DNA from: Hexactinellida sp. DTS-2022
Taxonomy: Eukaryota; Porifera; Hexactinellida
DNA: 64,000 bases
Reading direction: 5' to 3'
NCBI GenBank assembly: GCA_028753945.1
Contig: JAPNXP010000001.1
Location: forward strand, 16,048,501 to 16,112,500
This document shows positions 4,038 to 63,568 of the stretch, piece after piece. The notes under the pieces are model-generated. The model did not search any database and was not told the DNA's origin. It worked only from the letters and a program-made list of their open reading frames with translations. Made by a program: the position numbers and the translations under genes. Within the stretch, counting starts at the first letter, position 1, and each line of letters opens with the position of its first letter.

Positions 4038-4394
4038 TTACATTGGGATGACTCTGAGTTCTATCATATAAAAACTGATTTCATCTTTCAACTTCATCTT
4101 TTCATCAGTTAAATTACCCTTTTCTATCTGTAACTGTTGGCATACTCGTTCAAGATTATTGTATTCTTTTTTCCGTTTCTGAACAGAGTACCTTGTATTC
4201 CATTCCAGTCTCTGGTTCTTCAGCTCAGCTTTATCCGCTGCTTCCAAGTCTTCTGATATTGAAGCCAGTACCTCTATATTAACACTGCACAACTTAATAG
4301 GGTCAATAATGTACCTAATATTATTGCCTAATTTAACTTCATTCCTCCAATTGGGAATTAAAATTTGTTCAATTCTTTCGAAATAAGACTCCAT
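4038..4394 (-). CDS. Small coiled-coil protein, family member 1 (unrecognised family)
   Basis: A 118-residue single-exon ORF beginning MESYFERIEQILIPNWR. I do not recognise the family, but three other members occur at 45579-45944, 47682-48041 and 52188-52526. Shared features in order are: Y(F/Y)ExI..IL near residues 4-12; a W-R/K-x-E/K motif at ~16-19; G plus a short hydrophobic stretch at ~23-33; a conserved (D)KA near 53-55; then a charged coiled coil ending (D/E)EKxxLxxEIxFY. No signal peptide or membrane segment is present, so a cytosolic or nuclear oligomer is likely. A TATA box lies ~85 bases upstream, and the 5' UTR shares GAATTCA and AAACTAAAtAAGACA words with member 2. No function is inferred. 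Confidence 0.7.
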   Translation of the reverse strand: MESYFERIEQILIPNWRNEVKLGNNIRYIIDPIKLCSVNIEVLASISEDLEAADKAELKNQRLEWNTRYSVQKRKKEYNNLERVCQQLQIEKGNLTDEKMKLKDEISFYMIELRVIPM

Positions 4395-4476: not shown

Positions 4477-4485
4477 TTTTATAAA
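4477..4485 (-). promoter_or_regulatory. TATA box of coiled-coil family member 1
   Basis: Minus-strand TTTATAAAAG lies about 85 bases upstream of the ATG at 4394. Members 2 and 3 have AGTATAAAAG at 40-66 bases from their ATGs, so a strong TATA promoter is a shared family trait. Confidence 0.55.
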
Positions 4486-33399: not shown

Positions 33400-35679
33400 A
33401 TGGCTGAAGCTGAAAACTCGCAATATCGCGAAAAGGATCTCCCTCAGTTGATAATTCCTGAGGAGCTAGTTAACCCGAGTTCCTCTGATTCCGAACTTGA
33501 AACGGAATTACCGAAGACTCTCAGTACTCCTGTATCTCAGTTAGGCGCCGGATTTAGTGCCTTCGACTTTTCGGACACTGACGAACCGCCCTCCTCACCT
33601 ACCACTATCCCGAAAACGAGGAAGAAGCGTTATCCGCAGCGATTTCCCAGTAAGCACTTTGGACTGTTTCGTACTCCATGTAAAGTCAAGCCGAAACGTC
33701 CACGTGTCTCTACTAGAGGGTTGAAGATTCTAGAAGGATGTCATTTCCCCACACCGCATATGGCCTATGATGTCATCCTAAACGATGGTGGCAACGTTTC
33801 AACGAGGTCTCTCTTTGTTCCCCATGGGTCACAAATCATGAATATGGACATTCTGTCTAAAGTGTTCAGCTTGATTAGATGCCAAGAACCTAATTGCCAT
33901 GGTGGATCACTAAAGCTGCACAAATATCCACTAACCAGAGGGCTGCAATCCTACCTCATATTGCATTGTTCCCGCTGTCACTCAATTGTAGCACGCTTCC
34001 CTACTTCTCTCCATATTGGCGAATCTCCCTCAGAGGCGGTGAACAACCCTAAAATGATGTCTCATCGCGCCAGTGAAATCAATATCCGTGTCACTGTCGC
34101 CCTTCACACAACCTCTTTCGCCTGGCAGGATTTCCGGCTTGCCTGCGCGCTACTGGATCTCCCGGTGCCGCAGAAGAACCTCGACAAGCGTTCAATGGAA
34201 CGGTTTTGTGAAGTCACCTCAAAAGTAGCCGCCACTGCGATGGATCTAGCTGCTGAAGAGGTGCGCTGTAGGTTGGATTCTGAGCCGTCAGTCATCGCTG
34301 GTGTTACTCGCTGTCACGTGAGTTACGACGCTTCGTGGCATAGGAGGGGCCACTACTCAAATCAGGGATTCGGCGCCGCTATCGATTCTCACAGTGGTAG
34401 GGTCCTCGATTATGGCGTTATGCAGCGAGTCTGCAAGAAGTGTTCCAGTTGGTCCGAGGAGAGAAAAGCATCCTTTCCCGAGGAATATGAATCTTTCCGA
34501 GAGCACCACACCAACTGCACCATCAACTTTACAGGCACCAGCCAGGCCATGGAGGGGGCGATAGCGGTTGACCTGTGGAACAGATCTGTCAAACGCAATC
34601 GGTTGGTCTACAGTACCTATATTGGGGACGGCGACTCATCTTCATTCAAGAGAGTTGTTGAATCTGACCCGTATGATGGCCTCGAACCGATTCGGAAGGA
34701 GGAGTGCCTTGGTCACCTGCAGAAACGGCTCAAGAAGCATTTGACCAAAAAGTTAACAACGTCAGCGCCCATCCCGAAAGCGAAGGCTGATAGAATAGGC
34801 CAACTGTACTTCCGTGTTGTCGTTCAGAATAGGGGCAAACCAGCAGAAGAGATAAAACAAGCCCTTTGGACTTTAGTAGGGCACTTGGGAGAGGACCATA
34901 CGCACTGTCCAGTCACCTGCGAATCCTGGTGTTACTTCGCGAAAGCCCAAGCGGAGTTTGCACTGGATTCTTCTGTGACTCTTCCCAAACGCCGCATTCC
35001 TTTCTGCACTGACTCAGAAATAGTTCGGCTCAAACAAGTTTTCCACACATTTGCATCCCTTGAAGTCTGCGGTGCTCTAACTATGGGCAAAACCCAAAAC
35101 GCAAACGAATCCCTCCACTCTGTAGTCTGGCATAACTCGCCCAAGGGTAAATACGTTGGTCAGAAGTCCCTTGAATGCAGCACTGCACTAGCAGTGACGA
35201 GTTTCAATGAGGGCTCTCTCTCGTTCGCTGCTATTCTACGAGAATACGGTGTTTCCGTTTCAGCATCCACTGTACAGCACCTGGCTTCTAGAGACAAAGC
35301 AAGAATGTATAATCGCGAGAGGGCGATCAATGAGACCCAGAAGCGACGTAGACGCCAGCATAGCGTCCGTAGCCAAGCGGCCGAAGCCTCTCGTCAGAGG
35401 AGAGATAAGACGGCTTCTAAATACTTCTCTGGTGCCTTTGGTACAGAACTCCTGCCAACACAATCTGTAGCAGGGCCTGAAAGCGTAGAAGAATCGGACA
35501 CAGCATGTGCCACCTGTGAATTACGCATCTGCCCAATTGGTAGGAGGAGAAAGGTCGAAGAATGGATCGGATGTGACCTTTGTGATCGCTGGTACCATGG
35601 GAAATGTGTGGGAGTGAATAAGGTCTCAGCTTTCACCGATTCGCCCTTCTTTTGCCCAGACTGTGAAGACTCTTCATAA
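33400..35679 (+). CDS. Mutator-like transposase with C-terminal PHD finger
   Basis: An intact 759-residue ORF. Layout: ~1-110 acidic then basic low-complexity; ~160-195 a Cys-rich site (RCQEPNCHG...HCSRCHS); ~270-610 the Mutator-type DDE domain of metazoan proteins, with candidate catalytic residues in VSYDASWHRRG (~308-318), YIGDGDSSSFKRV (~407-419) and NANESLHSVVW (~566-576); ~640-690 an Arg-rich linker; ~703-757 a PHD finger (CATCELRIC, WIGCDLCDRWYHGKC, FFCPDC). PHD fingers read histone tails, so chromatin-guided insertion or a domesticated role is possible. GC content and codon use are higher than the AT-rich neighbours. I could not find terminal inverted repeats around the ORF, so whether it is still a mobile element is open. 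The start is the first ATG after upstream stops. Confidence 0.85.
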   Translation: MAEAENSQYREKDLPQLIIPEELVNPSSSDSELETELPKTLSTPVSQLGAGFSAFDFSDTDEPPSSPTTIPKTRKKRYPQRFPSKHFGLFRTPCKVKPKRPRVSTRGLKILEGCHFPTPHMAYDVILNDGGNVSTRSLFVPHGSQIMNMDILSKVFSLIRCQEPNCHGGSLKLHKYPLTRGLQSYLILHCSRCHSIVARFPTSLHIGESPSEAVNNPKMMSHRASEINIRVTVALHTTSFAWQDFRLACALLDLPVPQKNLDKRSMERFCEVTSKVAATAMDLAAEEVRCRLDSEPSVIAGVTRCHVSYDASWHRRGHYSNQGFGAAIDSHSGRVLDYGVMQRVCKKCSSWSEERKASFPEEYESFREHHTNCTINFTGTSQAMEGAIAVDLWNRSVKRNRLVYSTYIGDGDSSSFKRVVESDPYDGLEPIRKEECLGHLQKRLKKHLTKKLTTSAPIPKAKADRIGQLYFRVVVQNRGKPAEEIKQALWTLVGHLGEDHTHCPVTCESWCYFAKAQAEFALDSSVTLPKRRIPFCTDSEIVRLKQVFHTFASLEVCGALTMGKTQNANESLHSVVWHNSPKGKYVGQKSLECSTALAVTSFNEGSLSFAAILREYGVSVSASTVQHLASRDKARMYNRERAINETQKRRRRQHSVRSQAAEASRQRRDKTASKYFSGAFGTELLPTQSVAGPESVEESDTACATCELRICPIGRRRKVEEWIGCDLCDRWYHGKCVGVNKVSAFTDSPFFCPDCEDSS

Positions 35680-36289: not shown

Positions 36290-37641
36290 ATGTCGAAAAG
36301 GATAGCAATTATAGGTGCAGGGCCATCCGGACTCTCAGCAATGAGAGCGTTCCGAATGGCAGGATTAAAAGGCGAAACTATCCCGGAAATAGTTTGCTTT
36401 GAAAAGCAAGAGGATTGGGGTGGTGTATGGAATTACACATGGCGAACTGGCACTGATGAATATGGTGATACAGTGCATAGCAGTATGTATAGAAATATGT
36501 GGTCGAATAATCCGAAGGAGATCGTAGAACTCCCTGATTACACGTTTGCGGAGCATTTTTGTAAGCCTATTCCTTCATTTTACCGCGAGTAATTCTTCTT
36601 GATTACATTTTAGGGAGAGCTAAGAAATCGGATATAATGCAGTTTATCAAATTCAACATGCGAGTTGAAAGTGTTGTGTACATGAATGATAAATTCATAA
36701 TTCGTGTATGGAATAAAAGAGAAAATTGTGTGTTCTCAGAAGAATTTGATTATGTGATTGTCGCAAGTGGCAACTTTTCAGTCCCGCATTTTCCAGAATA
36801 CAAAGGAGTTGATTTATTTCCGGGTCGTATTATCCACTCACACGATTTCCGAAATGCAGAACAATTCCAAGGTCAGGATATAATATTAATTGGTAGTGCA
36901 CTTTCTGCAGAAGATATTGCTATCCAATGTTGGAAGTATGGTTCTAAATCTGTTACAATTGCTTATCGAAAAAGACCTAGGAAATTCAATTGGCCTGAAG
37001 GGATTATAGAGAGACATCTTTTAGATCACATGGAAGGGAAAACAGCAGTATTCCATGATGGTTTTCGTCAGAATGCAGATGCGCTAATCTATTGCACTGG
37101 TTATTTATTCCATTTTCCTTTTATGGAAGATAAGCTCAAACTGAAGAATGATGCACAACTGAAATATTGCCCGGGACTCTACAAGGGAGTAGTTTGTCAT
37201 AATAATCACAGACTATTTTATATGGGAATGACCTGTCTATTGTACCCTTTGATTAACATCGACATTCAAGCTTGGTTCTTGCGTGATGTAATTTTAGAGA
37301 GAATCATTTTGCCTTCGATTGAAGATATTCAGAAAGATATTAGCTTTTGGATGGAAAGAGAGGAAACTTGTAGGATGTTTATTGAGAAACTATACTTTCA
37401 GACTGATTATCTCAGAGATCTTTTGACACACCTGAGTGGTTATTCTATACCTAATCTTGACCTACTTTCACAGTATTATTTAATTCGACAAGAGCATAAA
37501 AAGAAGGATGTTCTCACATATAGGGACCATTCTTACACTTCGGCTGCTACTGGAATAGTCTCTCCTAATCGTGCTGTAAAATGGATTGATGCAAAATCTT
37601 TGGAGACGTTGGACACATTTTTAGAATCCGAATTTATCTAG
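36290..37641 (+). CDS. Flavin-containing monooxygenase with a single frameshift
   Basis: Two frames join to a ~450-residue FMO. Residues 1-100 carry [17 protein letters not shown] (FAD Rossmann motif), [15 protein letters not shown] and [13 protein letters not shown]. The first frame ends PIPSFYRE-stop at 36592. The second, joined about 36583-36589, continues [17 protein letters not shown]. It has the FMO fingerprint [14 protein letters not shown] (FxGxxxHxxxF), the NADPH site [14 protein letters not shown] and [16 protein letters not shown]. One missing base, probably a C in TTTTACCGCGAG, explains the break. FMOs use NADPH and O2 to oxygenate soft N or S nucleophiles. The length fits the short insect/plant-like FMOs rather than ~530-residue vertebrate ones. 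It may be an assembly error or a very recent pseudogene, since the rest is clean. Confidence 0.85.
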
Positions 37642-41545: not shown

Positions 41546-43869
41546 TTAGATATGATCTTCATAGTATTTTCAGCACGCTGATTTGAATATTATATTAATT
41601 GGAGGCGTCTTTTATCTCAAATATAAATGCATTTTAGAATTTCCATTCAATTTAATACAATCTAGAAATAAGGAAGAACATTGAAAATAATATAGAAATT
41701 AGTACAGAAACTTGAATTAGTTATTCCAATCAGTAAGAGCAATGTTTAGAAACTATAGAAATCAATTTAGTAATTCATAAATAGAGCCAAATAGATCTAT
41801 CAAATCTGCCCAAACACAAAAGAAGAGACAAACAAAATGATGCCAAACAACAACACAGTGATATACCGCATGAAAAGAACAATGTTTTGATAATCACACT
41901 TTCTTGTTGGAAGTCTGTGAGTATCTGATATTGTCAGTAATATTGGAACAGGAATTGAGTTCTCTGTGCTAGTATTTGCTGCAACTTTCTTTGTAATATA
42001 TTCCCAATTGTAGAGGTACAGTAGTAAGAGCTGAGAAATACTGGAAGCCATTAGACCGATGGCTAGAAAGGGATAATATCCTGACGCTTTCCAAGATATA
42101 TAAAAGGAAAACAAACATCCAAGTGGGACTGTTAAGAGACACCAAATGAACTGCAGAGTTGTTGCATACAAGTGAAGGCAACAGGCATTACAAATGCCTC
42201 TAGATACTAGAGACAAATCAGACAAAATGCATACACTGATAATCTTTAAACCGAATTCTATTAGTACCCTCATTTCTTCAACAGACGTGAAGACATAGGA
42301 AAGCCAGTTAGCACAACCGAATATGATTATCCCAAAGACACTGAGTATGAAAACCATATAGCAAATGCTTACAACAGCGGTTTTCTTAGCCTGTGTCAAA
42401 TTATTCTCTCCAAGAAGGTTCCCGATTCTGACCAGGGCTCCCATTCCATATCCATATGAAGCTGCAGAAAATAGAGTCCAAACTATATTTAGAATCCCCA
42501 ACATCGCAAATTGTTTTGTATCTCCCAGAATAAATCCGATGAATACTACTGGAATAATTCTGCAATTGGTAACATCGACAAAAAACTGTCCAATGCAAGA
42601 AATTCCATACTTCAAGAAATGGTACCAATTAGTTAAGAATTTAAATGACCAATCATTGTGGTTCCTAATATGCACCTCTGTCATTCGAACATACATGTAT
42701 AGGAGAAGAGCAATCATGTATGTGCTAAATGTATAGGACAGAGCAACACCTATTATCTCCAAGGGAATTACAACTACCAATAACCACTGTAGAAAGACGT
42801 TTAAGCAATTTCCCATTATCACAATTACTAGAATTGGGTACACGATGTTCTGTGACTGTAGAAATCCGTTAGTCAGCTTGTAGTAGATATACGCTGGATA
42901 TCCAAAGCAGAATATCGTTGTGTATTGCCCTGCTCCTTCTGCTATCAGAATATCGCCTGATAGGTAGTGTACGAGAGGCCTAACATTAATCAAGAGACTC
43001 CATAAAGGGAAACAGGTGAGAGATGCTATGAACAATGCCCTTGTGTAGTACATGCCGACTAGTTTGTGGTTCTTAGCCCCGTATGCTTGTGAACAGAGTG
43101 TGTTCATACCAGTTGCAATTCCTTGCATCATCACATAAGCTGTGAAATATATTATCGTCTGTCCGAGATACAGAGAACTGACTTTCTCGCTCATCTCTTC
43201 ACCTGACGTTCTTGAGATGAAAATTGTACCCATTTTGGATTGAATAGCATCACAAAAGAAACTAGAAGCCCCTACTACAGCTAGCTTGTTTAAGTGCTTG
43301 AGCTCTTCTATAATCCATTTGAGTTTTTCAATAAATTCCATTTGAAATGCTTTATTATTTCGCTACGCTAAATATATTTTTACTTCCAATGTTTTATGTC
43401 TACATATTCATTGATTCTTTTTATTGTACTTCTTATTGTTCTTATTATTGTTCTTCTTATTGTTCATTTTATTCGTTTAATTAGCTTTATGACCCAAGTT
43501 ACCCATGACAAGTTCAGAATTTATTATTGTCTGTTCATAGGCAACTCTATTATAATAGATATCATCATTTGATATTTCTTTTCACAATTTTGGCTGTTCT
43601 GATGAATAACATGCAGTATTAAAATATTATCAGTTAGTTCAGGATTTCAAAATTTTATTAACTAAGCGATAAATGCACACAAATAGAAACACATGAATTA
43701 ATCTTTGCCATGAATACTTTTTGCATATATTCTTCTCTTTTATACAGCCTTAATTGCATCTATTTCAATTTATATACTACATCATTATAATTCCAAAACC
43801 CACACTGTGCAATCTGTGCTAAAGCTAATAGCTCATAAATCTACAAAGTTGTTCGAGAGATTAATGTAA
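41546..43869 (-). repeat. Third MATE duplication unit
   Basis: Reverse copy of 15663-18850 minus Helitron C. Its outer edge keeps the uninterrupted target TGAGCTATTAGCTTTAGC and ends at ATTAATGTAACGAGCCC, the same boundary as the stub at 15663-15680. Confidence 0.85.
41800..43341 (-). CDS. MATE-family (SLC47-like) transporter, copy 3
   Basis: An intact 513-residue ORF beginning MEFIEKLKWIIEELKHL. Motifs match copies 1 and 2: NTLCSQAYGAKNHKLVG, FLQSQNIVYPIL, GYGMGALVRIGNLLGENN and a C-terminal hydrophobic helix. Distinctive changes are IIGVALSYTFSTYM, NWYHFLKYGISC, NWEYITKKV and LLTISDTHRLPTRK. It is closer to copy 2 in the first third (RTSGEEMSEKV, FTAYVMMQG) and to copy 1 in places later (FGCANWLSYVFTSVEEM), suggesting mosaic exchange. 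All three frames are free of stops, so selection on the protein is likely. The TATA-like box is weakened to CATAAAAC. Predicted plasma-membrane cation/H+ antiporter. Confidence 0.93.
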   Translation of the reverse strand: MEFIEKLKWIIEELKHLNKLAVVGASSFFCDAIQSKMGTIFISRTSGEEMSEKVSSLYLGQTIIYFTAYVMMQGIATGMNTLCSQAYGAKNHKLVGMYYTRALFIASLTCFPLWSLLINVRPLVHYLSGDILIAEGAGQYTTIFCFGYPAYIYYKLTNGFLQSQNIVYPILVIVIMGNCLNVFLQWLLVVVIPLEIIGVALSYTFSTYMIALLLYMYVRMTEVHIRNHNDWSFKFLTNWYHFLKYGISCIGQFFVDVTNCRIIPVVFIGFILGDTKQFAMLGILNIVWTLFSAASYGYGMGALVRIGNLLGENNLTQAKKTAVVSICYMVFILSVFGIIIFGCANWLSYVFTSVEEMRVLIEFGLKIISVCILSDLSLVSRGICNACCLHLYATTLQFIWCLLTVPLGCLFSFYISWKASGYYPFLAIGLMASSISQLLLLYLYNWEYITKKVAANTSTENSIPVPILLTISDTHRLPTRKCDYQNIVLFMRYITVLLFGIILFVSSFVFGQI

Positions 43870-45578: not shown

Positions 45579-45944
45579 CTAGTTGAGAGTTAGTTTAGAT
45601 TTGTACAAGTTTATCTCGGCTTCCAACTCTATCTTTTCTGTTTGTAGCCCATTCTTTTCCTCTCCTAAGACTATCAGTTGAGTACCTAGCTCTCTCAGCT
45701 CTCTTTTGAGTTTCTCGTTAGAGTTTTGGCTCCTCCAGCGTGCTAACTCCACCACAGCTCTGTCGTACTCTCTCAACTGTGACGTAATTAATCTGTAGTT
45801 ATGATAGTCTATTGTTCCTATCTTATCCAGATCAATAAAGCTATCTAGATTTAGATATTCCCCCATTCTAACTTCATGTTTCCAACGGGGATCCAAAATC
45901 TCAGCTATATTCTCATAGTAAGACATGATATCAGACTTATTCAT
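45579..45944 (-). CDS. Small coiled-coil protein, family member 2
   Basis: A 121-residue single-exon ORF, starting MNKSDIMSYYENIAEILDPR. Same order as members 1, 3 and 4: YYENIAEILDPRW (~9-21), KHEVRMGEYLNLDSFIDLD (~22-40), KIGTIDYHNYRLITSQL (~41-57), a DRAVVELARW helix start (~61-70) and a coiled coil closing EKIELEAEINLYKSKL. Closest to member 3. TATA box TATAAAAG lies ~40 bases upstream. The 3' flank shares CCCTTTCTA...TTAACTAGC with member 3. No known domain. Cytosolic by absence of signal or membrane helix. Confidence 0.72.
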   Translation of the reverse strand: MNKSDIMSYYENIAEILDPRWKHEVRMGEYLNLDSFIDLDKIGTIDYHNYRLITSQLREYDRAVVELARWRSQNSNEKLKRELRELGTQLIVLGEEKNGLQTEKIELEAEINLYKSKLTLN

Positions 45945-45983
45945 TTCGGTCTATGTCTTTTTAGTTTTTGTTGAATTCAAGAA

Positions 45984-45991
45984 CTTTTATA
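45984..45991 (-). promoter_or_regulatory. TATA box of coiled-coil family member 2
   Basis: Minus-strand TTTAGTATAAAAGTTC lies 40-47 bases from the ATG, then TTGAATTCAAC and AAACTAAAAAGACAT, a 5' leader echoed in member 1. Confidence 0.6.
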
Positions 45992-46479
45992 CTAAAGCTT
46001 TTTTGATCTATTAATCATAAATCAGTATTCCTGTTTTAAATATATACCTTCTTTACTAATTGTTCCGTATTCAATTAATAGAAGATGTTTATGCTATACG
46101 TATATTCGATTGACAGGTTTGAAATCCGATCGACTTATTACTCTTACAAATTGAAAAAGAGAACTATTAATATGGATTACTAGTTACACCATATTCTACA
46201 AATCATTAAATATACTTTTAGTGATCGAATATTTAACATTAAACGGTCTAATTTCTATATTATTTAAGATATTTTTCGGGGATATAGCCTAATAAAACAG
46301 AATCTATATTGCTAAAATGTTGATTATAGTTTATCTAAGTTATATAGTACTTTACATGAAGTCTTCACGAATTACAAAAAATTATCTTATTATTACAGAA
46401 TTGATATCGAGTACGTATATGGGGTATATTTACGTAGTACGTATTTGGAAACTAATGCAGTATGCAGTACTGTTCTATG

Positions 46480-46690
46480 ACAGTTACTTACCATGACAGC
46501 TTACTTACCTCTATTACTATAACCATGGTTAACCAGAAACAAATTATCTCTGACGGTACTTACCTTCTTTGCTATCGCTTCACGTGTTATACTTCCTGTT
46601 ACGCATTTACACTTATAAGGATTCACATATCAAATTCCAATTTACTATCATGTTATTGCAGCAACATTGCATTCAATAATTCCATATTAG
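46480..46690 (+). repeat. Dispersed repeat shared with 60250-60530
   Basis: ACAGCTTACTTACCTCTATTA... TCTGACGGT... TTATACTTCCTGTTACGC... ACACTTATAAGGATTCACAT matches 60250-60390 with ~75-80% of bases. At 60370-60530 the ACACTTATAAGGGTTCACAT word is mirrored, giving a MITE-like inverted repeat. The 77-codon frame here is an accident of the repeat. Confidence 0.5.
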
Positions 46691-47189
46691 CATAGACATT
46701 TTGGATAAAGTGTGAAGCCATACGAAATATGGTAAGTAAACCGTCATGAATAGAAAGTATCCCTGCTTAAATAATAGTGGTTATAGTAATAGAACCGTCA
46801 TACAACAGTACAATAATTGACTTATTGTGAAAAACTAACCTATTTTTCAGTATAACAATATATTATCCCCTCATGCGATGAATAAACTCAAATATTCCCT
46901 TTGATGGATCTACGTAATTGTTGATATAGAATAGATGATATTCAGATATTATTCTCTTCCACGATTGAGTCTACCCTTGAGCCACCGATGGGGTGAGGCT
47001 GGATTCACCAATGACAATATAAATAATAAAATTTTCCTCTTTGGAATCAATTAAGGAGTTACAAAAATATGTAATACGAGCTAATTGGTCTCGATTTTTT
47101 AAATTATAGTATTTAATTACATTAGAACTTGTTTATTATCTAATTAGCATAATATTCATAAAAATCACATAACATTTGTACGTTGTATT
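46691..47189. other. Gene-free stretch
   Basis: AT-rich, no supported feature. Confidence 0.4.
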
Positions 47190-47500
47190 ATTCCTCTCTT
47201 AATTAACAACAACAATAATTGTTTACACTTTTTAACATCATTTGTGAACAATATAATCGAAATCAGCATACTTGCTTATCAATCATACCCTCTAGGTTCT
47301 TTTCGAATATTAATTGATTAATTAGTTATTAATTAATTAAATATTAAAACCTATTTTGAAAACAACAATAAATATTCATATTAGAAATGTGTAAATTCAA
47401 AATTCGGGTTCAGCATCTTTATTTATCTATTTTAACATTTGACTGTTAGTCTTTCTCAAATATAATGCAGTTTAAACAAACAAATAAACAAATATGTTCA
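47190..47500 (-). mobile_element. Old Helitron A relic
   Basis: Words of the family A body survive in reverse: AACAACAACAATAATTGTTT, ATCAGCATACTTGCTTATC, AATTCGGGTTCAGCATC, ATTTTAACATTTGACTGTTA. Ends are lost. Confidence 0.5.
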
Positions 47501-47681
47501 TGCTACAGTGTCAAAACATTTATGTTAAAAACTCCATGCAAATACATATTTAATGTTAAAACTTGCAATTATAATAAAACAAAAATATTGTTATCAGAGC
47601 ATAGCTTGTAAATGAGCAGTGCTATAATGACTATGATGTATTATACGCTAGTTAGTAGAAAGGGGATTACTACATTCCAGT

Positions 47682-48041
47682 TTAAGAGTCAAGTCTTTTG
47701 TAAAACTCAATCTCACAGATTAGTCTTTTCTTCTCTGCTTGTAGTTCTGTTAACTCTATTGTAACTAAATCTATTTCTTTTTGGAGTTTCCTAATTTCTT
47801 TATTGGGTTTATCATGAGACTCTCTAGTTTTCTCTTTACCACGCGCTATCTCAATAACAGCTTTATCATGATCCGTGAGATGTGACATCATCTGTTTCAA
47901 TCTATGGAAGTCAATCTTTCCAACAATTTCTCGATTGATATATTCTCCCAGATTGAGATACTGTCCCTCAATCTTCTTAGCTCTCCAACAAGGATACATA
48001 ATTTCCTCAATCTTCTCATAATAGGATACAAATCCATTCAT
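47682..48041 (-). CDS. Small coiled-coil protein, family member 3
   Basis: A 119-residue single-exon ORF, starting MNGFVSYYEKIEEIMYPCWR. The N-terminal block YYEKIEEIMYPCWRAKKIEG (~7-26), YLNLGEYINREIVGKIDFHR (~28-47), HDKAVIEIARGK (~58-69) and a long Lys/Glu coiled coil (EIRKLQKEIDLVTIELTEL...) to EIEFYKRLD match the other members. It lies 1.7 kb from member 2 on the same strand, separated only by repeats, so these two look like a tandem pair. TATA box AAGTATAAAAG is ~60 bases upstream. The 3' UTR has CCCTTTCTACTAACTAGC, as in member 2. No recognised domain. Confidence 0.72.
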   Translation of the reverse strand: MNGFVSYYEKIEEIMYPCWRAKKIEGQYLNLGEYINREIVGKIDFHRLKQMMSHLTDHDKAVIEIARGKEKTRESHDKPNKEIRKLQKEIDLVTIELTELQAEKKRLICEIEFYKRLDS

Positions 48042-48099
48042 TTTTCAATATAATTTTAGTTTAATTTGTATTTTTACATTTTATTTTACAGTCTACTTA

Positions 48100-48107
48100 C
48101 TTTTATA
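48100..48107 (-). promoter_or_regulatory. TATA box of coiled-coil family member 3
   Basis: Minus-strand GGAAGTATAAAAGTAAG lies 59-66 bases before the ATG at 48041. Same core as member 2. Confidence 0.6.
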
Positions 48108-48524
48108 CTTCCTCTAGGCTCTATGGTACGATACCAAAACGATAATGTTCTAATATTACTCAGGGACTCCAAGCGATAATTATACGGTGTTTATTTACCT
48201 AAATATTTTGTTTACAAATATCACTGGGTTAAACAGTGTATTTATTCAATACCACTATAACAAAATAGTATGTAATCATAAACAAGACTCCATGTGATTA
48301 ACTGTTTAAGGAATTATCACTAGATTTGATTGATACTATACAAGACATTGCTATTATTTTGGATTACGACTGCACATTAGAATCTATTTTCACTTGGGTT
48401 TTATTTAACTCCTGTATATTCTTCTTCGATTAACTTTTTTATTTCGATTGCACTTGTTTACAAATACATTTAATGCTGATTAATGTTATAGTTTGTTAAA
48501 CGATTTCACTAAATCTTAGTGATA

Positions 48525-48665
48525 CAGTAGATGCCGGATAATAGAACACCGGTTATAAGAACATTCTACTGGAAAACGGTTGCCATATACCCCAATATAA
48601 TTTTATGCCGGTTATAAGAACGTTTTATGCAGTTCCCGACGATGTTCTTATAACCGGCATCCAAG
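48525..48665. mobile_element. TA-type MITE with GGTTATAAGAAC motifs
   Basis: Starts CAGTAGATGCCGGATAATAG after TA and ends GTTCTTATAACCGGCATCCA. The GGTTATAAGAAC word repeats inside. Sister copy at 63569-63726 has clean TA duplications. The last bases here are degraded. Confidence 0.7.
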
Positions 48666-48920
48666 TTTTGGTATTTCAATTCAAATTTACTTTATAAGAA
48701 ATATATATTTACATTACAGTCGAAATCGTAAGTGTGTTTGATTAAGACTAATATTTCCGAAAAATCTTGAGGCTTTCTGAATCACATTCTGTGATTATTC
48801 ATTTGCATTGATTTGAATTGCTTCACAAACTACGTATATCCAATCATTACGGAATCTGATAGTAATTTTACTAGTTCAAGTTTTTACTAGTTACTATTCC
48901 AAATAAACTAGACTCTGAAT

Positions 48921-49318
48921 CAGGGTTGCCTATCCAATCCAATCGAGAAGATTCTCTTGATTGCCGATTGCTGCATTTTTAATCGATTGGATTGCTTCGA
49001 TTTCTTTCGATTGTTTGTTTTTTAAATTTCTACATAATCCCAAATCTAAAATGCTAAATTGCTCGTCAATTAAACCCAATAATATATGTTTGAAGTTTGA
49101 AACATTACTGTTTTTTATATTAATATTGAGGAGTAACAATCGAAAAAATCGAAGAAACATTCGAAAAAACAATCGAATAAAATAGAAGAAAATTCGAAAA
49201 TAATAGAGGATTTTTGGATTGTCGATTTCGATTGGATTGTCATCCGAATAATAGATTGACGAAATTTGGATTGCTGATTGTCCAAAAATGGCTCGATTGG
49301 ATTGGATTGGCAACCCTG
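48921..49318. mobile_element. hAT MITE with 8-bp TSD CTCTGAAT
   Basis: Terminal repeats CAGGGTTGCCTATCCAATCC / GGATTGGATTGGCAACCCTG are flanked by perfect CTCTGAAT at 48913-48920 and 49319-49326. The interior is rich in TCGATTGGATTG and GATTGC words. The minus-strand 127-codon frame inside is made of these repeats and is not a gene. Confidence 0.92.
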
Positions 49319-49326
49319 CTCTGAAT

Positions 49327-49791
49327 TACAATGACAATATATTTATTAATTTATATGTGAAAAATATATTGTGCATTCTCTGTAAAGCAAATCTCTTACA
49401 AAATGCGTGATAATAAGCGTGTATTAGTATTTAATCCATCTATCAAATTATGCTTATTAATATTATTGGATTTTTTTATTAAAATTGCATACGGAATAAA
49501 AGGCATAGTGACTCAACTTGTGAGGCTATTAAACTAAATTTAGATTTTCATTAAATTGGGAATCACTTTCACTACTGGAATTGTGAGTGCAACTACACGT
49601 ATGTAAATACCTGCGCCCTATTACAGGACATTATTTTATATTAATTATATTAAAATTACCATGTACCCTGTGGATACATTTCCAGTAAATACACAAGATT
49701 ATAGTTTCCCGACATTTTCTATTGGAAGCCCTAAGCGGGGTTAATATTTCAGATCTCCCACATGCCTCAGCATTTACGGAAAGGAATTATA
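49327..49791. other. Gene-free stretch
   Basis: AT-rich; no feature supported. Confidence 0.4.
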
Positions 49792-49944
49792 TAGGAGCGC
49801 GAGACGCTCGTTTTGGAGCATGATTTTTGGAATTTTTTAATTAGGAGCGCGTAAATTTGGAATCCTCTCCTATACCGTAATATTTATTTGAGATTTAGGC
49901 GTATTAAAATAGGATCAGACCAGGATTAGGAGCGTATTTACAAA
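49792..49944 (-). repeat. Dispersed CGCTCCTAATCCTGGTC repeat, reversed copy
   Basis: GGAGCGCGAGACGCTCGTTT ... CCAGGATTAGGAGCGTATTT matches 1880-2048 and 59093-59250 in reverse. Confidence 0.65.
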
Positions 49945-52039
49945 TGGCTGTATAATACACTGGCTGTTTTCTAACAAACGGGATAAAAACGAATATTGGA
50001 ACATTCGGTGTATTCCTGTATTCCTCTATCACAAATAAGTACTCAAGACTTAATCTGAAAAACTATAGTTAGATTACTTCTAAATATATCAATTAGAAAA
50101 ATGTTTGGTATCAGGGCATATTTCTCCAGACCAACATTTGATGAGCAAAGTTTATCAGGAGATTTCTAATTTCTCAAGTTGGCCCGATCAATATAATTTA
50201 TTTTTACACAATATTAGATTATTCTGATTGAATTTATATTATTTACATAAAGATTATTCACTAATCACTTAGAAAATATAGAAACCTAACTGGGTATTTT
50301 GCATGGTAAAGAGATGTGATAATTATAGAATATCAATATTCGTTCGTTAGAGAGGATTCCATTCGTTTAGATCTGAATTTTTATCCCATACAACAGTCCT
50401 ATATCAAATAACAAATATAAGGTGGATCATGCGAACTCTGACTTTGGTATTTATGTCAGTCTGGAATCAAAAGCAACTCACCACCACTCAGCAATGTGTA
50501 GTTTCCAGTGCTTTACAAGTTAGGTGGTTTGGTAGCGTTAGCCACCAAATTTTTTATTTGGTGGCTAATCCACCATATATTGTGGATTATTTGATTTTGT
50601 GTATATTCATTATATTTTTCGTTGCATTATTTGTTATTACGTAATTAATATTAGTGGTTTTACTGCACCCCAGAAGTTTGTTAAGCCATCAGTGGTTTGT
50701 TAAACCGGCCTTTGTTTTCTTTAGCCACCAGAAAAAGTGAGGTGGTGGCTTAATTAACCACCATCCCGGCCATCAAAATGTATTTATCGTGCATTGGTAG
50801 TGACTAGAAAAAACTAAACTTAATGTTTGACACAAAAAGTTCTACAATTTCCATAATATTTCAACCCCCCTCCGCTCCCCATTCTACACAATCCCACCAC
50901 TTCATAGGGCTACACATCCCCCATTGGGACAAACTGCTCTAGGTTCCGGGAGCTGCTAATAGGTCCTCTAGAACTTTGCTAGCTACTAATTTATAGACCA
51001 ATTTACCATGGTAACAGGCGGATCCCGGCAATTTATCTCCCGGGCCTCTAAAACTTATTCACTACTCATCCATTTGTTAAGAGATTAGGCCACGATCTAG
51101 TGCGAAGATTAGTCGCTGTTTGGCGACCCCAACTCATAAGTACGTTATGTGGTGGTTTCGTCCCATTCCAGAAACTCATCAGGAAGGTAATTGCCCCTCG
51201 ACTACTGCCGTAGAGCTCTATATTACCTCTACCGTATTTCCTGTGTGTCCCTTTCCACATGATACGCTATGTAGAACCCTATACTGCCAACTTATGCAAG
51301 GCTCCCAACCTTACATACTCCTAAAGACTAGGGATGACCTGTACACAATTACCAAATTAGTAATTTACAAACTGTCAGTACCTTGACATATACTCTCCCA
51401 TGGCCCCTCCGGAACTAGTGAAATGCCACCTTATCTCCCACTTGGAGGCCTTGGGTTTCCGAATTATATTTCTAAATGTATAATTGTCTAACCTCACTTG
51501 AAGCGTCCTATGAACCTTGGAATGTCACAATAATATATTAGTTGCTTAGTATAAATTATATTCCAATAGTACAGCCAATATCTATATATAATTTAGGTCA
51601 CATGCATGTGTTCCACGATAATGCTGAGAATATACTAGTTGACTGACTAATATTTTCCACCATTCAAATGAATTGAAACTAATGGATATTTTAATACATT
51701 ATTAATTGCAAATGTACTTCGAGATAAATATATATTAAGTGTTGGTGTCGCAACAGAGAGCAATAATTACTACTGTTGTTATAGAAACAAAAATGTTTAA
51801 CATAACTAGAAATATCCGTAATCTTGTACAACAAAACAATTAAAAATTATGTTGAATAAGTATTACATTGGATTACAGAAAGCAAATCTTATCAAACGCA
51901 ATTATATCTACCAAACAACATATACTGTTTTAAAATATAGAGGGAAATGTTTGAATAATCATAACACGACTGTTGCTAAATAATATATGGAGCGTAAAGG
52001 TTGGATAAGTTATGTATGACACTATTTCTAAAAATAGAA
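49945..52039. other. 2-kb stretch without a supported gene
   Basis: A small hairpin of GGTGGCTAA/TTAGCCACC words lies at 50539-50567, and a related AGCCACCAGAAAAAG...GGTGGTGGCTTAA cluster at ~50690-50765. Frames at 50429-50644 and 51120-51386 have no recognisable motif. A less AT-rich patch, 50850-51480 (TATCTCCCGGGCCTC, TTTGGCGACCCC), could be an old element or exon remains, but I cannot name it. Confidence 0.4.
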
Positions 52040-52187
52040 TTATAAATAGATAATCTAGTATAGTACTTATTCATTGGGATTATTCCATTGTTTAATAATT
52101 AAAGAAACCTGCGAAAACTGGGATTGCTTTGGATATAAAATGAAGCTGAGTATAAGAGAGGTTGACTCGTTAATCAATGTAACTAAA

Positions 52188-52526
52188 ATGGCAGAGCAGG
52201 AAGCTTATTTCGAGCAGATTAAACAGGTCCTAGTTTCTTCTTGGAGAATAAAGCTGAGACTGGGAGAAGACCTTCGACAGTTTGTGGATCTTGAAAAGTT
52301 AATCGCCTTGGATATTTCAACCTTGAATTATATACTGCGACACATGAGAGAAAGTGAGAAGGCAATATTAAAAGATCTCAGGCAAAGAAGGAAGGATATG
52401 ATAAATCGAAATTTTATATCTATTGAGAATCAAGTGAAATCGCTGGAGAGTCAAAAATATACATTAATTAATGAGAAAAGCGCGTTATTGGCTGAAATAG
52501 ACTCCTATAAGCTACAACTAAACTAA
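52188..52526 (+). CDS. Small coiled-coil protein, family member 4
   Basis: A 112-residue ORF, starting MAEQEAYFEQIKQVLVSSWR. The frame is open upstream, but this ATG aligns with the starts of the other members and follows a TATAAAA at 52134-52140 (~50 bases). Blocks: YFEQIKQVLVSSWRIKLRLG (~7-26), LRQFVDLEKLIALDISTLNY (~29-48), a SEKAILKDLRQRRK coiled-coil start (~57-70) and EKSALLAEIDSYKLQLN at the end. Closest to member 1 (YFERIEQIL, KLGxxxR). It is the only member on the plus strand. Its 3' flank does not show the CTAGC motif of members 1-3. Confidence 0.68.
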   Translation: MAEQEAYFEQIKQVLVSSWRIKLRLGEDLRQFVDLEKLIALDISTLNYILRHMRESEKAILKDLRQRRKDMINRNFISIENQVKSLESQKYTLINEKSALLAEIDSYKLQLN

Positions 52527-53895: not shown

Positions 53896-56332
53896 CAGGG
53901 GTGGGCAAACTACGGCCCGCGGGCCGGATCCGGCCCGCTTGTGATTTTGAACCGGCCCGCCTGGCTTAAGTTATTTGAGATTTGAGTGCTCCAATTATAT
54001 GATAACTGTCTTACTCTTCCTTACATTTTACGTTTTCGGAGATAACGTCCCATGGAAAATTTGATTAAGTGATCTAGGATACGTATAAATTGACCCAAAG
54101 TGAACGTCTTTCTCGAATTTGTAAGATAACTTGATTTCTCTTGACTCAAATTTTTATGTTCTTTATAAATTACATTAAGCTAGTATATATGTAATTGACA
54201 TTCAGTTTTTATTCTGTTTGGGACGAAATTTCCTCGGACAAAATTTCAAATTACGATAATTCTGTGGGAGAGATTCCGAGATTCTTTCCTGACCTATTAA
54301 TCAATTCGTTTTTAGTTTTTATTAATAGTACTTTATCTTGGTATGGCTTCGAAAATTTCAAAGAAAAGGAAGGTAGATAAGGAATGTCGCGTTTTCAATG
54401 AAGAGTGGCGAGGAAAATATTTCTTTACAGAAGTGAATGGCCGATGTGTTTGTTTGCTTTGTAATGAGAGTCTGGCAGTATACAAGGAGTACAATGTCAG
54501 ACGTCACTATGACACACAACATGCGAGAGCTCACAGAAATATGTCAGAGTTAGAGAAGAAAGCTTTAGCTGAGAAACAGACACATTCTTTGCTTAAGGAA
54601 CAACAAGTGTTCACAACTCAGACACCTTTCAATGAGGCAGTAACCAGAGCTAGTTTTGTAGTAGCTCATAAAATTGCTCAGGAAAGTAAATCCTTCAGTG
54701 AAGGAGAGTTCGTGAAGGACTGTCTGCTGGCATGCTCTGATATTCTCTGTCCTAAAGAGACGAAAACATTTGACTGTGTCAGTCTTTCCAGAAGAACAAT
54801 TACCCGCAGAGTAGAAGAAATCTCAGCAGATTTACATGATCAAGTCAAGGATGAATGTAGAGACTGTATCTGCTTCTCTTTGGCCCTTGATGAGAGCACT
54901 GATATCAAGGACACTGCCCAGCTGCTGATATTTATTCGTACAATTGACTTTAACTTTAAATTATCGGAAGAGCTCGCGTCAATGGAGCCATTGAAAAGTA
55001 CAACTACTGGTACAGATTTGTTAAAGGCAGTTAATGAGTGCATCGAGAAACTGGGAATTTCGTGGGATAAGCTAGTGAGCGTCACAACTGATGGTAGCCC
55101 CAACCTAAAAGGAAAACATATTGGATTACTGAAAAAGCTTCAGGATCAACTCCACATTGAGAATCCGGACCAAAATATAATATTCTTGCACTGTATTATC
55201 CACCAGCATGCCTTATGCAAGGGTGCTCTTGGTTTGACGAATGTTTCTGATGTAGTGACAAAGGTTGTCAATTACATCAAAGCTCGAGGGCTAAATCATA
55301 GGCAGTTTCAAGCTTTTCTGCGAGACATGGAAGCACCATATGCTGATGTCCCCTATCATACGAAAGTAAGATGGTTGAGTCTGGGAAAAGTATTCAAAAG
55401 AGTTTGGGAGTTGAGGGAAGAAATAAACCTCTTCCTAACCATGAAAGATAAGGCTTCAGACTTCCCTGAGCTAAATGATAGCGAGTGGTTGTCTGACTTC
55501 GCATTTGCAGTTGACATAATGGAGTACATGAACGAGCTAAATACCCACTTGCAAGGCCAGGATATGTTGGCTCACAATATGCATGCAAAGGTGGAGGCCT
55601 TCAAAGCCAAATTGCAGCTCATTTATGCAGGAATGAACAAAGGCAACTGCGACCATATGCCTACACTCAAGCAGACATCAGTTTGTGGTGACAAGCTGGG
55701 ATACTACGCGTCAAAGCTTCAAGATCTGCACAAGGAATTTTCGGAAAGATTCAGAGATTTCGATCTTGTAAATGTAGATATGTCCATTGTTTCCAGGCCT
55801 TTTTCAGTTGAAGTGGAGGGAATACCCACTCATCTGCAAATGGAAATTCTAGATTTGCAAAGTGACAACTTACTCAAGGATAATTTTCGGGAGATGTCAC
55901 TCTCAGGTTTTTATGCATCCCTGAATGATGTCACATTTCCACGTTTAAAATCTCTGGCTCGTAAGATTCTTGTTCTCTTTGGTTCAACATATGTATGTGA
56001 GCAGGCTTTCTCCAGGATGAAGTTCATCAAGGATAAATCAAGATCTGTAATGACAGATGAACACCTTGATCAGCTTATGCGAATTGCTATATCACCAAAA
56101 GAACCAAATTTTGACAAACTAATAAAAATGCAGAATCAACTGCATTGCTCTCATTAAAAACACTATTAGAAAAATTATTATTTATGATTATTGTTTATTT
56201 TACAATTAGCTAGTAAGTTTCTCTAATAAATTACCAAATGGAACGTAGTCGTAGCCTCGTAGGTGAATACGGCCCGCATACAAATTTGGAATTAGAATGC
56301 GGCCCGCGAAGCAAAAAGTTTGCCCACCCCTG
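53896..56332 (+). mobile_element. Complete autonomous hAT transposon with 8-bp TSD GTCTTAAC
   Basis: Terminal repeats CAGGGGTGGGCAAAC / GTTTGCCCACCCCTG are flanked by perfect GTCTTAAC at 53888-53895 and 56333-56340. Subterminal CGGCCCGC words repeat at both ends (four near the left, two near the right), as in other hATs. It encloses one intact transposase ORF, giving 2437 bp in total. The target was itself a TA-type MITE end (CTTAACCAAGTTCTACTGTA). Confidence 0.97.
54343..56157 (+). CDS. hAT transposase (GTF2IRD2/ZBED-type)
   Basis: An intact 604-residue ORF (MASKISKKRKVDKECRVFNE...). Residues ~10-60 hold a BED-like zinc finger: FFTEVNGRCVCLLCNESLAV with RRHYDTQHA (C..C..H..H). Mid-protein RNase-H-fold landmarks: SLALDESTDIKDTAQLLIFI (~183-202, first Asp), VTTDGSPNLKGKHIGLL (~247-263, second Asp) and IFLHCIIHQHALCKGAL (~281-297). 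The C-terminal hAT dimerisation region is at ~540-590 (KILVLFGSTYVCEQAFSRMK). It excises and inserts DNA with 8-bp target duplications, recognising the flanking CAGGGGTGGGCAAAC ends. Close vertebrate relatives are GTF2IRD2-like and ZBED domesticated transposases. The open frame, intact ends and perfect TSD imply recent activity. Confidence 0.95.
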   Translation: MASKISKKRKVDKECRVFNEEWRGKYFFTEVNGRCVCLLCNESLAVYKEYNVRRHYDTQHARAHRNMSELEKKALAEKQTHSLLKEQQVFTTQTPFNEAVTRASFVVAHKIAQESKSFSEGEFVKDCLLACSDILCPKETKTFDCVSLSRRTITRRVEEISADLHDQVKDECRDCICFSLALDESTDIKDTAQLLIFIRTIDFNFKLSEELASMEPLKSTTTGTDLLKAVNECIEKLGISWDKLVSVTTDGSPNLKGKHIGLLKKLQDQLHIENPDQNIIFLHCIIHQHALCKGALGLTNVSDVVTKVVNYIKARGLNHRQFQAFLRDMEAPYADVPYHTKVRWLSLGKVFKRVWELREEINLFLTMKDKASDFPELNDSEWLSDFAFAVDIMEYMNELNTHLQGQDMLAHNMHAKVEAFKAKLQLIYAGMNKGNCDHMPTLKQTSVCGDKLGYYASKLQDLHKEFSERFRDFDLVNVDMSIVSRPFSVEVEGIPTHLQMEILDLQSDNLLKDNFREMSLSGFYASLNDVTFPRLKSLARKILVLFGSTYVCEQAFSRMKFIKDKSRSVMTDEHLDQLMRIAISPKEPNFDKLIKMQNQLHCSH

Positions 56333-60533: not shown

Positions 60534-60704
60534 CAGTGGAACCTCCACAAACGGGGCCTGTAGAAACGGGGATCCTCTGAATATTGGGTTAAAAAATGCA
60601 GCAAATTCCTAGTCCCTCATAAATGGACCTCCACAAATGGGGAATCGGCAGAAATGGTGGCTAAGACCTTGCGTCCCTGGCACCCCGTTTCTGAGATTCT
60701 ACTG
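60534..60704. mobile_element. TA-flanked MITE in NHE intron (CAGTGGAACCTCC ends)
   Basis: Ends CAGTGGAACCTCCACAAACG / CGTTTCTGAGATTCTACTG are flanked by TA at 60532-60533 and 60705-60706. AAACGGGG/AAATGGGG words repeat inside. Its right edge lies ~33 bases 3' of exon 3's donor. Confidence 0.82.
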
Positions 60705-60737
60705 TAAATGTTAGAATAGACGTAAATAACAACAAAC

Positions 60738-63306
60738 CTAGCATCGAATCTCTCCCACCAGTCCCTGGCCCTGTGGTGTCCGATGCTGCCCGTTATCTCC
60801 TCTATCCCCGACAGGATATGGTCAATAGCAGTCTCGTGTATAGTAGTGCTAAGGGTCTTATCCTTCTGAGTATCAAACTTAATGTGCAGTAGTTTCATCC
60901 AGTACTTAACTGTAGAGCCCTGTATAAACACTGTGAAGAATACAACAGCTAGTGTGGTCGTTACAAAGTGCTGTCTCGTAGTAATCTCGTCTCTCGCGCA
61001 GAGCTGCATTTCATTAGTTATCATTCCCAGCTGATTGAAGCTGATGAGAGAAAGCCCGAACGCAACTGCTCCTCGCAAGCCGCTGTAGCTCATTATAAAC
61101 TGATCCTAATTCAGAGAGCAGTGATTATTTGGTTGTAAGAGATTGAGTGAGAATGGAAAGTATTCAATTAAAAGAGATTTTATGGAAGTAGGGATTGGTT
61201 ATAAGTACAGTGAACTCCCGTTAGAACGAAGTGCTTGGGACCTGTAAATTCCTTCATAATATCCGTATTTACGTTATAAGCGGATGATAAATAATGCATT
61301 TAGTGCTCTGGGGGAAATATCCCTTTCGTTATAAGCGATTATTTCGTAACGGGAGTTCACTGTACTAGTTTATAAATAATAATCTGTTAAATTATAACAG
61401 AATATTAAAATCAGTGTGTTAATTAAACTCGACAATGTAAATGTTACCAATCACTTCAATATGAGTGAACATAAGTTATAATAACACACTGACTTCTAAC
61501 ATAGAAATTATTGTATATAAGTCATCCTTATGTACTTTCCAATTCAATTATCTTTCTATACTTTAAAGTGTAAACCAAATATGTTGTAGTGTAAGCTCAA
61601 ACCAGGGAATATATCCATGGTATTTTGCATTATTTCGGAATAGCACTGGTGCATTCGCGAATACACCAAATTCGGATTAATATTGCAATTGAGAATAGAA
61701 TCAAGTATATTTTCCAAAAAAGGAAAATAAACTGATCTAATTTATCCATAGTTCTTATAAATGAGAAGAAAACTATAAATTAAATTAAGAATAAATATAA
61801 TAAAAACTTACCTGGAAAGTAATCTTCTTTACTCGATATAAATTAACAAAAGAAGAGATAGCAAATACCCCAGTGACCCTGAACACCGTAATACCGATAA
61901 GAGTTATAAGAGTTAGTCCAATATCCCATTTATTCAGAATATCCAAGTTTGCAGTGTACAAACCGATGAAGAGGGATATTACAGTTTCACTCACAACAGC
62001 GAACATCTTTATGCCATACTTAACTACGCTATGAGACTTGTGTGATATGTTAGCCTCCACGTAATGTTTCATTGTAATAGCAACAGCTATCATGCTAATT
62101 ATACCGGACAGCATAAACAGCTCAGCCAGGAGATACGCGAAATAAGCCATTATGAATATAAACATTGGCTCGAGCACACGTATGTGGTCAGTGAAGCGAG
62201 TTATGAAACAGGTCAAATACCCGATCACAATTCCTATCAGCACACCGCCGATATTCACAATAAAGAACTTAAGGAAAGCGAAAGCTATATCGTACCACTG
62301 AAACGCTACTTCGTCTCGGCCTATGACACAACCAGTAGAGTTCTCCAGGTCTACGCCCCCGAATTCGTGGCTCTCTAAGCCTCTGAGAGGCACGTTTGCG
62401 AACTCTAGCAGGACATTGAACATGACCACCGTCACTGCGTCGTTAAATAGAGACTCTCCGAACACTAGGATGTGCAGGAGTTTGTTCACGTGGATCTACA
62501 AAGGAATTGTATAATAAATTATTGGAAAGGCATTGGAGCCTGTAGGCAGGGTGACCTGAGAATTTGGGCCAAAACCTGGACATTTCTCAAAATTTCGACA
62601 AAAATCCGGGACAATCCTGGATACAGGTTATAAAAAACTGGACACTATTAGTTTAATGTGAACGAATCGGAGACAATTGGATGATAATAAAAAATAATTG
62701 CAAAAAACAACAACCTGGACAATTAGAAAATTACTAGACATCGCATAATAATTGTAAAAAAATTGGACAATGGTCACCCAACATGATGAAGGGGATTGAA
62801 ATAGTGTCCCTATAAATCGGAATTTCGTATGAACTGTGTTCGTACTAACGAGTTTCTACTTAATGTTATAACGAGGTTCTATTTATTGTTATAACGAGGT
62901 TCTACTTAATGTTATAACAGAGTTCTACTGATAAGAATGAATGACTCTACTCACCTCTTCAAACACGACCAATACAGCGACAGGATCAACAGCAGATATG
63001 AAAGTGCCGAACATAAGTGCATTTGGGATTGTGAGGCGAGAAGATACGACATACGTACCCATTATGGACACCTTAGAAAACCCGTATAAAACCATCCCGA
63101 GTCCAAACGCATTCCAAACAGTGTTAACAAGTGCTAGGAGGGCTATGGTGAGTGCGTTTTCGAAGAGAGCTCTGTTGTTCATGAAATAGCCGGCTTCTAG
63201 CACGATGGGAGGCAGGAGCACGAGGAAGAACAGCGTGGGCGTGAAGCTTATTTCTTTAATGTAATTGGGCCTGCCAGCTACGATACTGGATCCCAGGAAT
63301 ATATAA
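60738..63306 (-). CDS. Na+/H+ exchanger (SLC9A, NHE1-like), membrane-domain exons 1-3
   Basis: Exon 1 (63306-62955) follows CCAATAG and encodes YIFLGSSIVAGRPNYIKEIS, FFLVLLPPIVLEAGYFMNN and ISAVDPVAVLVVFEE, then GTGAGT. Exon 2 (62495-61812) follows TTTGTAG and encodes IHVNKLLHILVFGESLFNDA, IRVLEPMFIFIMAYFAYLLA and YVEANISHKSHSVVKYGIK, to KKITFQ and GTAAGT. Exon 3 (61105-60738) follows GAATTAG and encodes DQFIMSYSGLRGAVAFGLSL, FFTVFIQGSTVKYWMKLL and a tail start. All phases agree. FGESLFNDAVTVV carries the family's conserved transport Glu-Asp region; VEANISHKS and SGLRGA are NHE signatures. It exchanges Na+ for H+ at the plasma membrane. The N-terminal exons must lie right of 64000. Confidence 0.92.
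61208..61362. mobile_element. TA-flanked MITE in NHE intron (CAGTGAACTCCCGTT ends)
   Basis: Perfect terminal repeats CAGTGAACTCCCGTTA / TAACGGGAGTTCACTG with TA at 61206-61207 and 61363-61364. Internal CGTTATAAGCGGATGATAAA and CTTGGGACCTGTAAATTCC are as in 1216-1407. Confidence 0.88.
62843..62932 (+). repeat. ~27-bp tandem repeat in NHE intron 1
   Basis: ACGAGGTTCTACTTAATGTT units occur about three to four times. They resemble the right end of CGTACTAACGAGATTCTACTG-type MITEs, so the array may have grown from such an end. Confidence 0.7.
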
Positions 63307-63568
63307 CTATTGGAGTACAGTACGCATTATAATATCTATTTATATCCCAATGTTACAGTGTATTTGTTGCAGTTTATGGACGTGCATGGCACGAATTTCA
63401 ACAGCAACAGATTAACTAGTTGTCCCTTGAAATTATAACCAACTTTGAACTTTGATATAAAACAAATGCTGATGGAAAAATGTAATGTAACATTGATTCA
63501 TTTTTATTTTGTGTGGGTATACACTGCACAAAGATATACCATTAATCGAATATAGTATAGACTGTATA

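Follow-up and report, generated by a model that had tools for sequence, protein, structure and literature searches.

Short CNC/Maf-derived bZIP-like genes in the genome of a hexactinellid sponge and their possible role as zipper-only partners

The window analysed here is a stretch of 64,000 nucleotides from the sponge Hexactinellida sp. DTS-2022 (C1:16048501-16112500, where C1 is contig JAPNXP010000001.1; the genome comprises 112.4 Mb in 18 contigs), and it contains four short, uninterrupted open reading frames (ORFs), m1 to m4, which almost certainly descend from CNC/Maf-type basic leucine zipper (bZIP) proteins. They are members of an expansion of short, uninterrupted genes whose number we estimate at about 90 and, to judge from their sequences, they have kept the zipper used for pairing and seem to have lost the part that grips DNA. 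We think it rather probable that they pair through the zipper with CNC or Maf partners and block or redirect them.

Results

The original prediction described m1 to m4 as an undescribed four-member family of TATA-driven coiled-coil genes with no named domain. The four ORFs (three on the minus strand, one on the plus strand) are confirmed exactly at the coordinates given below, with m2 and m3 adjoining on one strand, as had been claimed; each has a TATA box upstream. EHR stands for the extended homology region of CNC and Maf proteins.

4038-4394, minus strand: m1, 118 amino acids, CNC/Maf-like mini-bZIP with a partly retained basic region (N-T-R-Y-S-V-Q-K-R)
4478-4483, minus strand: TATA box of m1, 89 bases upstream of the ATG
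45579-45944, minus strand: m2, 121 amino acids, with N-terminal IL..W block, CNC/EHR-like helices, leucine zipper and eroded basic region
45986-45991, minus strand: TATA box of m2, 47 bases upstream of the ATG (a second TATA box lies 102 bases upstream)
47682-48041, minus strand: m3, 119 amino acids, with a proline within the former basic region
48102-48107, minus strand: TATA box of m3, 66 bases upstream of the ATG
52134-52139, plus strand: TATA box of m4, 54 bases upstream of the ATG
52188-52526, plus strand: m4, 112 amino acids
52284-52361, plus strand: residues 33-58 of m4, segment resembling the CNC/Maf EHR in alignments (VDLEKLIALDISTLNYIL..ESEK)
52362-52433, plus strand: residues 59-82 of m4, basic region, shortened and degenerate
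52443-52508, plus strand: residues 86-107 of m4, leucine zipper, hydrophobic at every seventh residue (L86, L93, L100, Y107)

That the four are related, as first proposed, is borne out by an end-to-end alignment with 14 invariant columns, in which m1, m3 and m4 are 36, 30 and 32% identical to m2; the closest paralogue of m2 is m3 (38% identity). The reading frame of m4 stays open further upstream of the chosen ATG, and a start at this ATG is favoured because of the TATA box at 52134. When the family profile described below was run against all window frames of at least 25 residues, only m1 to m4 were found at E<1, and there is thus no fifth member in the window.

The ancestry of the four proteins is seen most directly in profile searches. 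A profile of m1 to m4 alone matched Nrf2 first in the PDB, across the whole span from the CNC domain to the zipper, and its CNC/EHR part gave matches to Nrf2, MafB, MafG and SKN-1. The helical CNC/EHR domain that precedes the basic region is present in the window genes, though weakest by profile in m2, and EHR positions are common to the window members and other family loci; in the model of m4 computed with AlphaFold, helices fall at residues 35-40 and 43-51, and the best structural matches of the m4 and m2 models are Maf structures, albeit weak ones. The motif (I/V)D..K(L/I)..(L/I)D is the start of the CNC/Maf EHR, and what had been described as a coiled coil is the leucine zipper of a bZIP; the proposed layout of a short N-terminal helical domain followed by a coiled coil is sound, and dimerisation is predicted, but the domain is not new. 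The match to a known domain, an outcome that the original prediction had named as refuting it, emerges from profiles, while single window proteins stay below Pfam cut-offs: m4 scores 14.1 bits for bZIP_Maf (PF03131) against a cut-off of 22, m1 to m3 are not listed for that family, and a Pfam scan of the window proteins gave no other domain above cut-off. The N-terminal IL..W helix block lies outside the PDB matches, which start at a profile position of at least 33.

CNC-bZIP factors (Nrf2/NFE2, BACH1, SKN-1) share with the window proteins the order of helical CNC domain, basic segment and leucine zipper. The window proteins differ from them in being only 112-121 residues long, with no activation or degron domain seen, in having an eroded, out-of-phase basic region, and in carrying the extra N-terminal block. 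Small and large Maf proteins likewise have an EHR, a basic segment and a zipper, and the window proteins are presumably close to small Mafs in size; here, by contrast, there are dozens of copies in one genome, and 44/49 Maf-type members lack the basic-region Asn.

The family is far larger than the four members first supposed. Genome searches with m2, m4 and m3, accepting matches up to E=10, gave 12, 18 and 11 places, respectively. Most of the weaker matches fall in short open frames located on other contigs. Signatures of bZIP proteins occur at several of the places (NRRAAKRFR in locus L006, for instance), and a Pfam scan of ten of the loci placed a bZIP family over its cut-off in five. Pfam bZIP_Maf matches at least 85 places in the genome, at least 70 of them over the curated cut-off, and at least 61 of these 70 sit in open frames no longer than 220 residues; bZIP_1 matches 48 places, 17 over its cut-off. 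From the collected loci, 592 open frames of at least 70 residues were gathered, and a profile was trained to convergence on 77 of them, with m1 to m4 held out. It recovers m4 at E=1.9e-6, m3 at 1.4e-5, m1 at 1e-4 and m2 at 0.046 (for a nominal 300,000 ORFs), and among 10,000 shuffled versions of m1 to m4 none reached E=1000 under HMMER default filters. Shuffling the zipper alone removes most of the score and shuffling the N-terminal part alone also lowers it, so that most of the signal comes from the zipper, with a further contribution from the CNC/EHR part. The further members that the original prediction proposed to look for with a profile are thus present in number. The set comprises 82 frames, one of which (E=0.43) was excluded from the tree and group counts; without it and three frames that resemble other bZIPs, 78 family frames remain. 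Of the 82 frames, 21 do not coincide with any of the 85 bZIP_Maf places; conversely, 24 of those places (10 over cut-off) lie outside the set read. The figure of roughly 90 members is an estimate, made up of the 78 family frames and the ten further places over cut-off.

A quick maximum-likelihood analysis of 83 rows gave a tree in which a 29-row group holding m1 to m4 splits from the rest (support 93 in the Shimodaira-Hasegawa-like approximate likelihood ratio test, SH-aLRT). Besides the window members it contains 25 rows, here called CNC-type (one of them, an ORF of 334 residues, sits on a long branch); 49 rows are Maf-type, and three resembling other bZIPs were set aside. MafB joins a four-gene, large-Maf-like array at C14:77.6-85.0 kb (93), and m2 pairs with m3 (89); many forks are unresolved, and m1 to m4 do not appear as one clade. 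By local alignment score, 43/49 Maf-type members are nearer to MafB, and 18/25 CNC-type members are nearer to Nrf2 (6 are nearer to MafB, with one tie). When 15 of the 25 CNC-type members are combined into a profile, it finds Nrf2 (1.5e-14), BACH1 and SKN-1 ahead of MafB, and a profile built from 15 of the 49 Maf-type members finds MafG (4.4e-14), MafB and MafA ahead of Nrf2; the best matches of single members include Nrf2 for L049 (9e-11), MafA for L033 (3e-13) and MafG for L044 (3e-6). With CNC-type members matching Nrf2 and BACH1 and Maf-type members matching MafG and MafB, both halves of the CNC-Maf heterodimer have therefore multiplied. Within the family, sequence comparison places m1 to m4 on the CNC-like (Nrf2-like) side. 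Among the window members themselves, m2 is nearer to Nrf2, m1 and m3 almost tie, and m4 is slightly nearer to MafB; the Nrf2 row of the tree lies near the split on the side opposite the window members.

The array on C14 (L032-L035) consists of four larger Maf-like ORFs with open frames of 259-380 residues; the ratio of nonsynonymous to synonymous substitution rates (dN/dS) is 0.34-0.51 in five pairs. These genes are plausible relatives of the expansion's ancestral Maf.

Each bZIP partner contributes one half of the DNA grip, according to the text cited here from a survey of 896 bZIPs from 49 genomes, which gives only three differences at the Asn and Arg positions across eukaryotes (PMC4736632). 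In the sponge family the basic-region Asn is kept in only 5/49 Maf-type members (Met in 15, Ser in 10), the Arg eight positions on in 35/49; the Asn is kept in 17/25 CNC-type members, a significant difference (Fisher test, 6e-7). The modules of the window members were scored against those of 77 other members, with ranks counted from the bottom. The basic regions of m2, m3 and m4 each rank 1 and that of m1 ranks 11; the zippers of all four rank 43 to 67, above the family median; and the CNC/EHR parts rank 3 of 78 (m2), then 20, 24 and 48 in the other three. These ranks are alignment-dependent, because gaps score -1 and inserted residues are ignored. All four d positions of the zipper are hydrophobic in 4/4 window members. 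Spacing gives a measure that does not depend on residue identity: between the CNC turn and the zipper, the distance departs from the family norm by a multiple of seven in 65/71 other members and in 0/4 window members (Fisher test, 1.7e-4), the phase shifts being -2 in m4, +1 in m2, and +3 in both m1 and m3. Because the basic and zipper parts of bZIP proteins form one helix, such out-of-phase spacing would break the geometry for gripping DNA. The net charge of the basic region is +2 to +5 in m1, m3 and m4 (m2 falls outside that alignment) against a family mean of +8. Both the Asn and the Arg are kept in m1, a borderline case for the loss of the DNA-binding part.

It could be argued that the window proteins are still DNA-binding factors whose basic region has been rebuilt for a new site preference. 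Across the family, basic regions vary widely and yet Arg at +8 (58/80) and Tyr or Ala at +3 (62/80) persist; m1 retains its partial basic region; and in oomycetes, expression is reported for members of a bZIP expansion in which the Asn is substituted, and the authors, in the part of that report used here, presume them to be functional (PMC4046829). Against this, the basic regions of three of the four proteins score lower than any others in the set, heptad phase is lost in all four, the charge is reduced, and m3 has a proline in its basic region; we regard this reading as unlikely. The window genes are better filed, as far as sequence can tell, as CNC/Maf derivatives than as DNA-binding CNC/Maf factors. 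More doubtful still is the idea that the proteins lost their ancestral bZIP function and now serve as coiled-coil adaptors in processes other than transcription: the IL..W block beyond the PDB matches may be a different binding surface, but the CNC/EHR-like domain and the zipper are both retained, and the Pfam scan offers no other domain above cut-off.

A TATA[AT]A box occurs 25-125 bases upstream of the ATG in 67/81 frames, compared with 81/402 blocks of the same width further upstream (Fisher test, 7e-27) and with 6/17 other long ORFs; the 81 frames are those with enough upstream DNA, counting in the weak frame and the three that resemble other bZIPs. The fuller TATAAATA is found in 43/81 family frames and in 1/17 other long ORFs. 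The median distance from box to ATG is 62 bases (69 frames with a chosen box), with an A-rich stretch starting about 25 bases past the box. The claim that the four genes are TATA-driven thus extends to a trait of the whole family.

Selection was assessed in 41 paralogue pairs of at least 50% identity, of which 25 were saturated and left unused. In 16/16 pairs with unsaturated dS (three with dS above 1.2), dN/dS is 0.09-0.51; the 16 pairs are not independent, since a single four-copy cluster supplies six of them and the C14 array another five. The values below 1 that the original prediction had anticipated are thus found in the measurable pairs, all between relatives outside the window, and indicate that purifying selection is acting on relatives of the window genes. 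Of the six window pairs, five have saturated dS, but across all six, second codon positions are 0.54-0.65 identical, compared with 0.32-0.44 for third positions.

Among bZIP_Maf matches over cut-off, 35/69 are no more than 500 kb away from a contig end (15% expected), or 18/42 after merging of clusters (p 1e-5); these figures are for contigs of known length, take contig ends to be chromosome ends, and stand without a mapped control family. Clusters are common; C1:16.201-16.221 Mb, which lies about 90-110 kb past the window, holds five Maf-type genes, for example. In this cluster (L046, L047, L048, L050 and L053), four of the genes are 88-98% identical, and all five have Met in place of the basic-region Asn.

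Decay of the window genes towards pseudogenes, as spent copies of the expansion, is very improbable. Their basic regions are degenerate, and stop codons occur in 3/85 bZIP_Maf places (one being the gene's own end) and in one further related place with three stops; but m1 to m4 are open over their full length, each with an ATG, a stop and a TATA box, their zippers score above the family median, and second codon positions are conserved over third. Finally, the earlier view of an unrelated new coiled-coil family merely resembling bZIPs, for which one may cite single members under the Pfam bZIP cut-offs, the tendency of coiled coils to cross-match and a window profile score lying mostly in the zipper half, can hardly be sustained against the held-out profile and the shuffles, the common EHR positions and TATA architecture, the first rank of Nrf2 over the CNC-to-zipper span, and the failure of the family profile to match long helical-looking ORFs (L019, L020 and L029) that m4 matches weakly.

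Other features of the window

17033-18574, plus strand: MATE transporter ORF
21841-23409, minus strand: MATE transporter ORF
31227-32548, plus strand: helical stretch, then NHL and beta-propeller matches in two frames, resembling the TRIM-NHL type
33400-35679, plus strand: Mutator-like transposase ORF of 759 residues with a C-terminal PHD finger
36290-37641, plus strand: flavin monooxygenase-like gene across two neighbouring frames (two exons or a frameshift)
41800-43341, minus strand: MATE transporter ORF
54343-56157, plus strand: ORF of 604 residues containing a zinc finger as well as a hAT-type dimerisation region, 1.8 kb from m4
60617-63326, minus strand: likely sodium/hydrogen exchanger exons (Pfam on 61788-62489 only, the rest from reading translations)

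The three MATE ORFs are uninterrupted (513-522 residues) and 96.8-97.0% identical in DNA, as expected of recent copies, and are in mixed orientation (Pfam was run on the first only).

Discussion

In the role that we favour, pairing with and blocking or redirecting CNC/Maf partners, each window gene would be expressed as a small protein located in the nucleus, where its zipper would pair with full bZIP partners, of Maf or CNC type, from the same family. The partner would be kept off DNA or have its action changed, which would make the window proteins a built-in brake of microProtein type, if the effect is negative. As each partner supplies half of the DNA grip, one that has no basic region would be expected to prevent or change binding. 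The features that define a microProtein, namely a small protein with a dimerisation domain and without the DNA-binding part, are found in these proteins of 112-121 residues, with m1 as a borderline case. CHOP, Id and LITTLE ZIPPER have likewise kept the dimerisation part and lack the part that contacts DNA. The same holds, in the sections of the reports cited, for the mini-TGA StTGA2.1 (PMC10022624) and for Nrf1 gamma/delta (PMC4188613), although these are single genes or isoforms and the sponge proteins are encoded by separate short genes in a large family. StTGA2.1 is described as dimerising without detected DNA binding and yet altering transcription, by activating it (PMC10022624, as cited), and the effect of the window proteins therefore need not be inhibition.

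A bZIP family with lineage-specific duplication and lost DNA contact is already a known kind of system. The oomycetes, as the cited portion of a Phytophthora sojae study describes them, are a known case of bZIPs that have undergone a large lineage-specific expansion by duplication and had the conserved Asn replaced (PMC4046829). The replacement named there is cysteine (PMC4046829), whereas here it is mostly Met and Ser and in the Maf-like group; the sponge genes also have the EHR and TATA promoters, and a CNC-like expansion accompanies the Maf-like one. What is new, as far as our search extends, is the scale, the double expansion of CNC and Maf types, the loss of Asn in the Maf-like group, and the common TATA promoters; our literature search found no report of such a CNC/Maf expansion in an animal.

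We tentatively suggest, with rather less confidence than we attach to the pairing role, that in this sponge the CNC-Maf stress-response pair became a combinatorial system of about 100 short, TATA-driven mini-bZIPs, expanded on both sides and often clustered towards chromosome ends, in which most Maf-type members lack the Asn and some CNC-side members, including m1 to m4, are zipper-only regulators; such a system may form a rapidly inducible dimer network tuned by choice of partner and not by DNA site. Animal bZIP repertoires are small and stable, with 12 members reconstructed for the ancestor of animals and few changes thereafter, in the account drawn on here (PMC4736632), and some 90 CNC/Maf-derived mini-genes in one genome would be a striking exception among animals. 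They would also supply many bZIP basic regions without the Asn, a residue that the survey of 896 bZIPs, in the part cited, found changed in few lineages (PMC4736632), and would allow the growth of transcription-factor dimer networks to be studied as a natural experiment.

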